A DNA stretch of 64,000 bases from Sporichthya brevicatena (GTDB lineage Bacteria > Actinomycetota > Actinomycetes > Sporichthyales > Sporichthyaceae), in assembly GCF_039525035.1 (NCBI RefSeq), contig NZ_BAAAHE010000040.1, positions 1 through 64,000 of the forward strand. The letters are read 5' to 3'. Under the pieces are notes generated by a model, which saw only the letters and a program-made list of their open reading frames with translations, made no database searches and had not been told where the DNA came from. Of the stretch, positions 18,221-47,416 are shown piece by piece. A program made the position numbers and the translations under genes. Every line of letters begins with the position of its first letter. Positions within the stretch are counted from its first letter, which is position 1.

Positions 18221-18727
18221 ATGCCGTTGCTCGTGGTCCTCGCCCTGCTGATCGTGCCGATCGCCGAGATCTACGTGATCGTGCAGGTCGGCCAGGAGAT
18301 CGGCGCGGGCTGGACGATCCTCCTGCTGATGGGCTCGGCCGTCCTCGGCAGCTGGCTGATCAAGCGCGAGGGCCGACGGGCCTGGCTCGCGCTCCGGGAG
18401 AAGGTGAACAGCGGCGGGCTGCCCGCGAAGGAACTCGCCGACGGCGCGCTGATCCTGATCGGCGGCACGCTGCTGCTGGCGCCCGGCTTCCTGTCCGACA
18501 CCGTCGGGCTCTTCCTCGTCCTGCCGTTCACCCGACCGCTCGCGAGGCGGGGCCTCGTGGTCTTCGCGAAGCGCTACTTCGTCGTCATCCCCGGCGGGCC
18601 GACCGGTCCCGGCGGCTTCGGGCCCGGCGGCTTCGGGCCCGGCGGCTTCGGTCCTGGCGGCTTCGGTCCTGGCCGGCGGCCGGACGGCCGCGGGGATGTC
18701 ATCCCCGGCGAGATCGTCGACGAGTAA
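18221..18727 (+). CDS. fxsA: FxsA family membrane protein
   Basis: Small membrane protein of the FxsA family (168 residues), known in E. coli for relieving exclusion of phage T7 when overproduced; the normal role is unknown. Transmembrane segments are LLVVLALLIVPIAEIYVIV and ILLLMGSAVLGSWLI, then GALILIGGTLLLAPGFLSDT, a family signature. The tail has four GGFGP repeats, encoded by 15-base units, and an end (RGDVIPGEIVDE) that includes a 15-base palindrome. Start ATG 18221 lies 10 bases after GGAG; ATG 18212 is an alternative. Confidence 0.9.
   Translation: MPLLVVLALLIVPIAEIYVIVQVGQEIGAGWTILLLMGSAVLGSWLIKREGRRAWLALREKVNSGGLPAKELADGALILIGGTLLLAPGFLSDTVGLFLVLPFTRPLARRGLVVFAKRYFVVIPGGPTGPGGFGPGGFGPGGFGPGGFGPGRRPDGRGDVIPGEIVDE
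18611..18670 (+). repeat. 15-base tandem repeat, 4 copies, in fxsA
   Basis: Four head-to-tail copies of GGCGGCTTCGGGCCC (last two ending GGTCCT) encode Gly-Gly-Phe-Gly-Pro. The unit keeps the reading frame. The first two and last two copies differ in the same way, so the array probably grew by duplication of pairs. Confidence 0.9.
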
Positions 18728-18774: not shown

Positions 18775-18816
18775 AAAAACCCCACCAAGGGGTGACACCC
18801 CCTTGGTGGGGTTGTT
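18775..18816. terminator. bidirectional terminator between fxsA and rbpA
   Basis: AACCCCACCAAGGGG (18778-18792) pairs over 15 bases with CCCCTTGGTGGGGTT (18799-18813) around TGACAC. An A run precedes the stem and TTGTTT follows it, so it has a U tract on both strands, fitting the convergent genes on either side. Confidence 0.92.
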
Positions 18817-43063: not shown

Positions 43064-46000
43064 GTGAGCCCCCACTCCCCCTCGACCACCCGCGTGCGCG
43101 GCGTCTGTTCCTACTGCGGCGTGGGCTGCGGCATCGTCCTCGAGATCGGCCGGGACGCGGCCGGCGGACGGCGGGTCCTCTCCGTCGCCGGGGACACCGA
43201 GCACCCGGCGAACCGCGGCCGTCTCTGCACGAAGGGCGCGACGAGCGCCGAGGTCGCCTGCGCGCCCGGTCGGCTCGAGTCCGCGCTGCTGCGTCCCGAG
43301 CGTGGCGCGACCCCGATCGCCGTCGGGGTGGACGACGCGATCGCCGAGGCCGTCGTCCGCCTGCGTGCGATCGTCGACGAGCACGGCCCGGACGCGGTCG
43401 CCCTCTACGTCTCCGGGCAGATGACGACCGAGGCGCAGTACCTGTCCAACAAGTTGGCCAAGGGCTACCTGCGCACCAACAACATCGAGTCGAACTCGCG
43501 GCTGTGCATGGCGAGCGCCGGCGTCGGCTACAAGCAGTCGCTCGGTTCCGACGCCCCGCCCGGGTCGTACGACGACTTCGACGCCGCCGACGTCTTCCTG
43601 GTCGTCGGCTCGAACATGGCCGACTGCCACCCGATCCTGTTCCTGCGGATGATGGAGCGGGTCAAGGCCGGGGCCAAGCTGATTGTCGTCGACGTCCGGC
43701 GCACCGCGACCGCCGACAAGGCGGACCTGTTCCTTCAGGTGCGCCCCGGTACGGACCTCGCGCTGCTCAACGGGCTGCTGCACCTGATCGTTGCGAACGG
43801 CGACCACCACCCCGACTTCATCGCCGAGTTCACGACGAACTGGGACGCCGTCGAGGCGATGCTGGCCGACTACGCCCCGGCCCGGGTCGCGGAGATCACC
43901 GGTCTCGCCGAGCAGGACCTCCGCACCGCGGCGGCGTGGATCGGCGGCGCCGCGAACTGGATGACCTGCTGGACGATGGGCCTCAACCAGTCCGTCCAGG
44001 GCACGTGGAACACCAACGCGATCTGCAACCTGCACCTCGCCACCGGCGCGATCTGCCGGACCGGCTCCGGCCCGTTCTCCCTCACCGGACAGCCGAACGC
44101 CATGGGCGGGCGGGAGATGGGCTACATGGGGGCCGGCCTGCCCGGGCAGCGTGCCGTCCTCTCCCCCGACGACCGCGCGTTCGTCGAGAACCTCTGGAAC
44201 CTGCCGGCCGGGACGCTGCGCACGGACGTCGGTCAGGGCACCGTCGAACTGTTCGAGAAGGCCGCCGCCGGGGAGATCAAGGCGATCTGGGTGATCTGCA
44301 CCAACCCCGTCGCCTCGGTCGCCAACCGCAACACCGTGATCGCCGGGCTCGAGGCCGCCGAGCTCGTCATCGTCCAGGACGCGTTCACCGACGCGGAGAC
44401 CATCGCCTACGCGGACATCGTGCTGCCGGCGGCGCTGTGGACCGAGGTCGACGGCGTGTTCGTCAACTCCGAACGGAATCTGACCCTGCTTCAGCCCGTG
44501 GCGGACGCGCCGGGCGAGGCCTTGCCGGACTGGGACCTGATCGCGCGCATCGCGCGCGGGTTGGGCTTCGTCGAGGCGTTCGCCTACGACCGCGCCGAGC
44601 AGATCTTCGACGAGCTGCGTGCCTTCGCGAACCCCGCGACGGGCTACGACCTCCGCGGCGTCACCTACGACCGGTTGCGCACCTCCCCCGTCCAGTGGCC
44701 CGCTCCGCCGGACGACGACGAGGCGCGCCACCCGATCCGCTACCTCAACGACGGCCGTAGCCGTGCCCTCGTCACGCGGGAGGACGGTTCGACCCCCCGG
44801 TTGGCCTTCGCCACTCCCGACGGCCGCGCGGTCTTCCACGCCCGCCCGCACGTCGGGCCGGCCGAGCTGCCGGACGCCGAGCATCCGTTCGTCCTCACGA
44901 CCGGTCGCGTCCAGCACCAGTGGCACACGCTGACCAAGACCGGCAAGGTCCCGCGGCTGGCGAAGCTCAACCCCGGCCCGTTCGTCGAGGTCCACCCCGA
45001 CGACGCCACCGCGCTGGGCCTGGCCGCCGGCGACCGCGTCGAGATCACCTCGCGCCGCGGCCGCGCGGTGCTCCCCGCGGTGATCAGCGATCGCATGGCC
45101 CCCGGCACCTGCTGGGCCCCGTTCCACTGGAACGACGCCTTCGGCGCCGACCTCTCGATCAACGCCGTCACCAATGACGCCGTCGACCCCGCCTCCTTCC
45201 AGCCGGAGTTCAAGGTCTGCGCCGTCGCCCTCGCCCGCGTCTCCGCCCCGGCACTGGAGATGACATCTCCAGTGCACTCGGCCGATCCGGTGGAGATGAC
45301 ATCTCCACCGGATTCCGCGATTTCGGTGGAGATGTCATCTCCAGTGGAGTCGGCGCTGGCGGCCGCGCTCGGGCTGGGCGAGGTCGCCGGGGCGGAGTTC
45401 ACCGCGCCGGAGTTCACCGCGCCGGAGTTCACCGCGCCGGAGTTCACCGCGCCGGAGTTCACGGGGATCCAGCGGCAGTACCTCGCCGGGCTCACGGTCG
45501 GGCTCGCGTCGCCGCAGGCGCGGCCGGGGACGCCGGTGCTGCCCGCGGACGCCCCGTTCGACGACGAGCGCCGAGCGTGGGTCGCGGGCCTGCTGGCGGG
45601 CCTGTTCTCCCGCGCCGACGTGGGGCCGGGCCCCACCGCGAGTGGAGATGTCATCTCCACTGGAGATGTCATCTCCAGTGCGGGGGCGCCGCCGGAGACC
45701 GTGGTGCTCGCCTGGGCGTCGCAGACCGGGAACGCCGAGGACTTCGCGAGCGGGGCCGCGGCCCTGCTCGCCCGGGACGGCCTGCCCGTCCACCTCACGA
45801 TGATGGACGATCTCGACGTCGCCACGCTGCCGCAGGCCTCGACCCTGCTCGTCGTCACCAGCACCTTCGGGGACGGCGAGTCCCCCGACAACGGCCAGGG
45901 GTTCTGGGCCGCTCTCAGCGACACCGCCGCGCCGCGACTCGACGGCGTCCGGTTCGCCGTCCTGGCCTTCGGCGATCCGAACTACGCCGACTTCTGCGGC

Positions 46001-47416
46001 CACGGCCGCCGGCTCGACGCCCGCCTCGCCGAACTCGGCGCGACGCGTCTGGCCGATCGCGTCGACGCCGGTCCCGACGACCGCGCCCGCGCCGCCAACT
46101 GGCTCACGGCGGTCCGCGACCTCCTCCGCCCCGACGGAGAGCGTCCGGAGCCCCCGCCGGCGGCGGCGCCGACCGCGCCCGCGACGCGTCCGGTTCCGCG
46201 CCCGGTCGCGGTGACCCTCCCGCCGTCGGTGCCGGTCCCCGCGCCCGATCCCGGCGCCGAGTACGTCTCCCCCGACGTCCAGCCGGACGTCGAGGCGGCC
46301 GGTCTGTTCACCCGGCGCCAGCCGCTGCCGACGCGGCTGGTCACGAACCTCGCGCTCACCGGCGCCGGGTCGGCGAAGGACGTCCGCCGGTTCGGGTTCG
46401 CGCTCGACGCCGGTTGCACCTACGAGGTCGGGGACGCGCTCGGGGTCTGGCCCAAGAACGACGAGACGGTCGTCGACGAGTGGCTCGCGGTCACCGGACT
46501 CGACGGGGACGCCGTCGTCGCCCTCGACGACCGACCGGAGACGGACCTGCGCACCGCCGCGCGGGAGTACCTCGACATCGTCCGGATCACTCCGGACCTG
46601 ATGCGGTTCGTGAACCAGCGTCACCCCGACCGCGACCTGGCCCGGCTGCTGCGCGCCAACAACAAGATCGCGCTCGAGCAGTGGCTCTGGGGCAAGCAGG
46701 CGATGGACCTGCTCGCCGAGTACCCGGTCCGCGCCGCGACCGAGGACTGGCTGGACGTGATCCGCCCCCTCGCCCCGCGCCTGTACTCGATCTCGTCGAG
46801 CCCGAAGGAGTTCCCGCACGAGGTCGCGCTGACGGTCTCCGCCGTGCGCTACGCCTACGAGGGGCGGGCCCGGCACGGCGTCTGCTCGACCTTCCTCGCC
46901 GACCGTTGCGCCGACGAGACCGTTCCGGTCTTCCTCCAGCGCTCGCCGCACTTCCGGCCACCCACCGACGGCCGGACGCCGATGATCATGATCGGCCCCG
47001 GCACCGGCGTCGCGCCGTTCCGCGGCTTCCTCCAGGAGCGCCGCCAGCTCGGCCACCACGGCCGCAACTGGCTGTTCTTCGGCGAGCAGCGCTCCGCGAC
47101 GGACTTCTACTACCGCGCCGAGCTCGAGGAGATGTACGGCGCGGGGCTACTCACCCGGCTCTCGCTCGCGTTCTCCCGCGACCAGCGCCAGAAGGTCTAT
47201 GTCCAGGACCTGATGCGTGCCGCCGGCCGTGAGTTCTGGCGGTGGCTCGACGCCGGTGCGCACGTCTACGTCTGCGGCGACGCCGGACGGATGGCGAAGG
47301 ACGTCCACGCCGCGCTGATCGAGATCGTCCGCGACCACGGCGGTCTCGGCGAGCGGGCCGAGGAGTACGTCCGGAGCCTCGTCACCCAGCGCCGGTACGT
47401 GCGCGACGTGTACTGA
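43064..47416 (+). CDS. assimilatory nitrate reductase fused to CysJ-like NADPH flavoreductase
   Basis: A 1450-residue cytoplasmic fusion that should carry electrons from NADPH to nitrate in one chain. Residues 1-730 form a bis-MGD molybdoenzyme with an N-terminal 4Fe-4S motif (CSYCGVGC, then RLCTKG) and [14 protein letters not shown], whose Cys is the expected Mo ligand. A repeat-rich linker (about 730-875) follows. Then come a flavodoxin domain ([14 protein letters not shown], from about 879), an FAD domain (RLYSISSSP, near 1240) and an NADPH loop ([14 protein letters not shown], near 1308), ending YVRDVY like CysJ. The linker holds palindromes and a tandem repeat listed separately. It starts with GTG 43064. 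No nitrite reductase or transporter is next to it. Confidence 0.93.
45251..45275. repeat. linker palindrome 1
   Basis: Arms GCACTGGAGATG and CATCTCCAGTGC around a single A, 25 bases. It is part of the nitrate reductase gene and reads as Glu-Met-Thr-Ser-Pro. Confidence 0.85.
45285..45313. repeat. linker palindrome 2
   Basis: Arms ATCCGGTGGAGATG and CATCTCCACCGGAT around a single A, 29 bases with 14-base arms. The outer arm differs from palindrome 1, but both arms changed together, so hairpin-forming ability is kept. Confidence 0.85.
45327..45343. repeat. linker palindrome 3
   Basis: TGGAGATG-T-CATCTCCA, 17 bases with 8-base arms; the flanking bases do not pair. It reads as Glu-Met-Ser-Ser-Pro, the third copy in the linker. 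Confidence 0.8.
45392..45463 (+). repeat. 15-base tandem repeat, 4 full copies plus a partial one, in the linker
   Basis: GCGCCGGAGTTCACC is repeated four times after a partial copy and encodes Ala-Pro-Glu-Phe-Thr. Copies are nearly identical, indicating recent expansion. It lies between palindromes 3 and 4. Confidence 0.92.
45641..45680. repeat. linker palindromes 4 and 5, overlapping
   Basis: AGTGGAGATG-T-CATCTCCACT (45641-45661) and CACTGGAGATG-T-CATCTCCAGTG (45658-45680) overlap by four bases, just before the flavodoxin domain. They are read in another frame than the first three, giving Gly-Asp-Val-Ile-Ser. Confidence 0.85.

Follow-up and report, generated by a model that had tools for sequence, protein, structure and literature searches.

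Short palindromes that occur in tens to hundreds of copies beside the 3' ends of genes have been described as REP, BIME and REPIN elements (PMC3733652, PMC3116915). They lie mainly in convergent or codirectional gaps and form arrays as well as inverted pairs, and related genomes carry different families. REPs were found less than 20 bp from the 3' end of either ORF in convergent pairs, and a minority is located in frame within genes (PMC3733652). All of these features recur in the palindromes that we analyzed in the genome of Sporichthya brevicatena (G000, 5.23 Mb, 71.6% GC in the sampled part), starting from five copies in a window of 64,000 nucleotides, the whole stretch of DNA under study. 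The main family, here called family A, is defined by the 17-base core TGGAGATGWCATCTCCA with outer arms that are variable but usually complementary, and its units measure about 17-31 bp. A second palindrome, family D, has the core GGGTGWCACCC and is typically AAGAAAGGGTGACACCCCTTACTGCGCAGTAAGGGGTGTCACCCTTTCTT.

Unlike in REPs with GTAG or CGTC, the stem of family A is symmetric around one central A/T. Neither motif was present at any one offset in more than 3% of family A or more than 7% of family D, so there is no tag; GTRG at -9, present in 33% of family A, belongs to the arm of the palindrome itself. Moreover, in contrast to RAYT-linked REPs no Y1/RAYT gene was detected in G000. CGTC REP families without a dedicated transposase have also been described, in a text that makes no mention of Actinobacteria (PMC3733652). 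Since neither the tag nor the transposase was found, we do not class family A as a REP in the strict sense. The REPIN unit consists of two inverted REPs; here family D forms mostly inverted pairs and family A occurs solo or in arrays. Rickettsia palindromic elements are likewise tolerated in frame in conserved protein genes, but these are stem-loops of 105-146 bp with terminal repeats (PMC2229807), whereas family A is far shorter and usually intergenic. Bidirectional intrinsic terminators share with families A and D the location of their stem-loops, just 3' of stop codons and in convergent gaps, and their T-tract is present in family D but absent in family A. A search of the open-access literature and of Rfam gave no description of these sequences or of actinobacterial dispersed palindromes. 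The kind of element is known, with the Rickettsia elements as a parallel for palindromes in coding sequence, and family A itself is, judged by its sequence, apparently undescribed. We consider it probable that family A is a lineage-specific, REP-like family of dispersed palindromes with a putative role as RNA hairpin at 3' ends, of which copies in frame within genes are tolerated.

The palindromes of the window and their genomic copies

The gene that carries the five palindromes (43064..47416, + strand) encodes a molybdopterin oxidoreductase/flavodoxin fusion according to Pfam. Its N-terminal part comprises the domains Molybdop_Fe4S4, Molybdopterin and Molydop_binding up to residue 720, its C-terminal part a flavodoxin/FAD/NAD reductase from residue 885, and both palindrome sites lie within the linker of residues 720-885 between these two domain blocks. 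A sequence-only reading had reported five in-frame palindromes with a common core in this linker, and we confirmed them: all are perfect, in frame and built on TGGAGATG-W-CATCTCCA. The exact core TGGAGATGWCATCTCCA is found at 45255-45271, 45291-45307, 45327-45343, 45643-45659 and 45661-45677. Copy 1 (GCACTGGAGATGACATCTCCAGTGC, 45251..45275, given without strand like all palindromes below) has an arm of 12 bases and copy 2 (ATCCGGTGGAGATGACATCTCCACCGGAT, 45285..45313), 36 bases past copy 1, an arm of 14; both are translated as EMTSP. Copy 3 (TGGAGATGTCATCTCCA, 45327..45343, arm 8) follows 36 bases past copy 2 and is read as EMSSP. At the second site copy 4 (AGTGGAGATGTCATCTCCACT, 45641..45661, arm 10) and copy 5 (CACTGGAGATGTCATCTCCAGTG, 45658..45680, arm 11; 18 bases past copy 4) are both translated as GDVIS. 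These arms agree exactly with the range of 8 to 14 given before, and the translation in two frames was equally well recognized. Outside the core the flanks of copies 1 and 2 are unlike (GCAC/GTGC vs ATCCGG/CCGGAT) and both sets pair, as had been claimed.

In the window a 15-base core with up to two mismatches was found six times, against 0.11 expected from shuffles. The RNA hairpins predicted for the window copies have energies of -15 to -24 kcal/mol each. No Rfam model reached the gathering level in the window; the matches below this threshold were microRNA models, which we attribute to chance similarity with a long hairpin. Between both palindrome sites the linker also contains a tandem repeat with a unit of 15 bases (GCCGGAGTTCACCGC, translated as EFTAP, 45391-45465), of which the sister species (G001) has fewer units, so that the linker varies through this repeat as well.

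Genome-wide, the 17-mer of family A is dispersed in 122 copies, compared to about 6.6e-5 expected from composition and none for the reversed control. The sister species contains 60 copies, and none were found in a third congener (G002) or in 57 further genomes (G003, G004 and 55 others). With the shorter core GAGATGWCATCTC the counts were 170, 77 and 1 in the three congeners, respectively. Isolated exact matches to the 17-mer also turn up in distantly related genomes. Those with contexts that we inspected (from Anaerostipes, Thiobaca, Nostoc and ten more) were rejected as unrelated sequence, being either near-identical repeated copies or conserved flanks.

Position, arm pairing and reading frame

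To determine the context of the copies we used pieces of both genomes, about 1.26 Mb from G000 and 1.11 Mb from the sister species, and accepted up to two mismatches to the core. As genes were called with a purpose-written gene finder, counts near gene ends are approximate. Among the 67 family A copies in the 1.26 Mb of G000, 30 were located in convergent, 16 in codirectional and 1 in divergent gaps and 20 in coding sequence, classes that make up 1.3%, 4.9%, 2.0% and 92% of the sequence, respectively. The nearest copy is centred at a median of 20 bases past the stop codon, the typical position being 15-30 bases 3' of it, and 81% of the intergenic clusters lie within 30 bases of a stop compared to 24% of random non-divergent intergenic points. 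The protein linker is therefore not the chief habitat, since the majority of copies lie directly 3' of stop codons. A more general enrichment of TGWCA-centred palindromes at gene 3' ends was also considered and dropped, as only the named families show it.

This position would fit simple bidirectional terminators multiplied by selection and without mobility, an explanation that we regard as possible but not likely. Family D in particular looks, from its sequence, like a bidirectional intrinsic terminator. Its cores number 297 in G000 and 272 in the sister species, with background numbers elsewhere, and occur mostly as two inverted cores 27 bases apart, the outer sides of which are T-rich (4.6 T in 10 bases; 62% with five or more). 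It is found at sites of the same type as family A, and both families mix in clusters and can replace each other. Family A, however, is no canonical intrinsic terminator, as its GC-rich stem lacks a T-tract: only 1.2-1.5 T were counted among the 10 bases that follow the stem, and a terminator scan found none at the window copies. Moreover, about one third of the loci lie within genes, where termination would be harmful. As a REP-like family, the copies would instead fold in the transcript into a strong hairpin that may mark or protect 3' ends, and such hairpins could help to stop read-through between convergent genes.

In solo copies 4.28 of the six outer arm positions 9-14 pair, compared to 3.25 after shuffling of partners, and none of 5000 shuffles was as high. 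Within arrays the outer arms pair less strongly (3.23 vs 2.88 shuffled; 15 of 5000 as high). Such covariation may arise because the hairpin is under selection or because one arm, folded in the hairpin, templates the repair of the other. Outside genes the period of arrays is mostly 37 and sometimes 36 bases. In 24 of 36 cases adjacent family A copies have the same orientation. The cores of neighbouring copies are 99% identical and spacers between loci 43-49%, while spacers within 37-base arrays reach 79%, a sign of local duplication. Pairing between the two ends of an array was no better than chance and was not considered further.

A site for a DNA-binding protein, such as a nucleoid protein, a regulator or a gyrase-recruiting site, would also explain why the 17-base core is near-invariant when spacers and outer arms diverge, and for the REPs of E. 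coli gyrase, IHF and Pol I have been cited as binding partners (in PMC6006769). We nevertheless find it unlikely that such a protein maintains the copies, because just 1 of the 67 copies lies in a divergent gap, the type that bears promoters, because symmetric binding by itself would not call for the covariation of the outer arms, and because the third congener has a version with a different stem instead.

The sequence-only reading had also proposed that the palindromes are tolerated in frame within genes, and this is supported beyond the window. All 12 spacings of arrays within genes (36, 30, 27 or 18 bases) were divisible by three, compared to 8 of 37 outside genes (Fisher p = 1.4e-6), so selection keeps the reading frame. 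The 31 copies within genes of the two genomes use two frames, 22 and 9 times; the third frame, which yields TGA when W is A, was never used. In TilS, an acyl-CoA dehydrogenase and a polyketide synthase-like gene the copies are located between Pfam domains, and in an MMPL protein close to the C-terminus. Two AMP-binding enzymes carry them within the domain match ahead of the conserved TSG motif, where distant homologues vary in length. A minority of the REP-like copies would accordingly land in interdomain linkers or loops and survive there only if the frame is kept and the stop-bearing frame avoided.

Comparison of congeners and exchange of families

As suggested in the earlier reading, we compared the linker in close relatives. 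The orthologue of the host gene in the sister species, obtained by whole-genome search, is 94% identical and has one copy at the first linker site compared to three in the window, a difference of +72 bases or 2 x 36, and one compared to two at the second. In the third congener the orthologue lacks a copy at the first site, while its second site is taken by a CGGATGACATCCG palindrome, and two members of the sister genus showed a palindrome at neither linker site. The arrays of the window gene may have grown from one to three and from one to two copies, or they may have shrunk in the sister species; such local changes in copy number could arise by slippage or by recombination between self-complementary units.

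An orthologous interval of the sister species could be assigned to 44 clusters of G000. At 38 of these both species hold the same family, and at the remaining ones it is absent, mixed or of the other family. Copy numbers at orthologous clusters differ (e.g. 5/3, 4/1, 3/1 and 2/1), and among the 14 family A copies that could be matched the centre had flipped between A and T in 4. The core was unchanged at orthologous sites with differing flanks, although the conservation of its innermost positions is partly due to ascertainment, as the search required them. Since most loci are common to the sister species, recent mobility must be slight. Occupancy appears to be mostly inherited and copy number fluid, and we infer mobility from these patterns.

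The claim of a mobile element thus holds in part: copy number and presence differ between species, whereas no transposition junction or clean target-site duplication was found at the few empty sites compared. A Y1-type transposase, which had been suggested as the acting enzyme, was not found. The search with PF01797 (Y1_Tnp) was negative in all three congeners and positive in control genomes including E. coli, and a REPtron-like search yielded no candidate transposase gene flanked by family A copies. Dispersal, insertion in frame and the differences in presence would fit a MITE-like element with an unrecognised transposase, in which the palindrome represents fused terminal repeats. This seems quite improbable to us, since we found neither a longer element with such ends nor, at the few empty sites compared, a clean target-site duplication, nor a transposase flanked by copies. 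For the REP-like family some enzyme other than a detectable Y1 transposase would have caused the dispersal. Selection on the linker peptide with an incidental DNA palindrome, which the uniform frame within the hydrophilic linker of the window gene might suggest, is refuted by the genome-wide distribution and deserves hardly any credence, given the use of two frames, the 122 copies that lie mostly outside genes and orthologues with fewer or no copies. That the DNA or RNA palindrome rather than the peptide is multiplied is instead supported by the dispersal, the two frames and the pairing outer arms, and this proposal withstood the tests named with it, namely a lack of other genomic copies and orthologues with the same peptide but no palindromes.

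Palindromes of related structure occupy further sites. In the window the last codons of fxsA (PF04186) contain GGGGATGTCATCCCC (18692..18706), which has the same GATGWCATC centre, so the palindrome reported near this gene is real; its stem resembles one repeat type of the third congener. GPGGF-type short repeats lie at the C-terminal end of FxsA (18605-18675) just ahead of this palindrome, which is in frame. After the fxsA stop lies a member of family D with an A-run and T-rich ends (18778..18813), which lacks one base per arm in the sister species with the pairing kept. CGGATGWCATCCG was counted 63 times in the third congener, 6 times in G003 and in neither G000 nor the sister species; in the third congener it is arranged in tandem with a period of 25-27 bases, often after stops. 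The same genome carries the GGGGATGTCATCCCC type in inverted pairs. It also contains near-identical 25-26 base tandem arrays of CAACGGATGTCATCCGCAGCG (L225, L226, L227), a possible strain-typing repeat, and GGGGATGTCATCCC in inverted pairs that are spaced by 59 bases and enclose CTCGACCGC (L243:309-376, L242:7118-7185, L231:4742-4809).

The stem dialect is GGAGATG in two species and CGGATG in the third, in addition to the GGGTG terminator family. The second site of the host gene holds family A in G000 and in the sister species and the G002 type in the third congener. Likewise, acyl-CoA dehydrogenase orthologues (L151:4335-5531, L245:1501-2715) carry two in-frame family A copies in one case and two in-frame family D copies at the same place in the other. 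That the same sites, even in frame within genes, are held by different dialects could point to a factor with affinity for the centre. We tentatively suggest, as a possibility with the odds against it, a genus-wide REP-like system without tag and Y1 transposase, in which the common centre GRTGWCAYC is kept while whole genomes switch stem dialect, the stems being rewritten or replaced by some factor that recognises the centre.

Our study adds an apparently undescribed, transposase-orphan REP-like system in which conserved enzyme genes carry palindromes in frame, and a clear comparison of array growth between sister species. It provides a test case for how a repeat may spread without a RAYT, for the role of hairpins 3' of stop codons in high-GC bacteria, be it termination or protection of transcripts, and for why different stem families hold the same sites.
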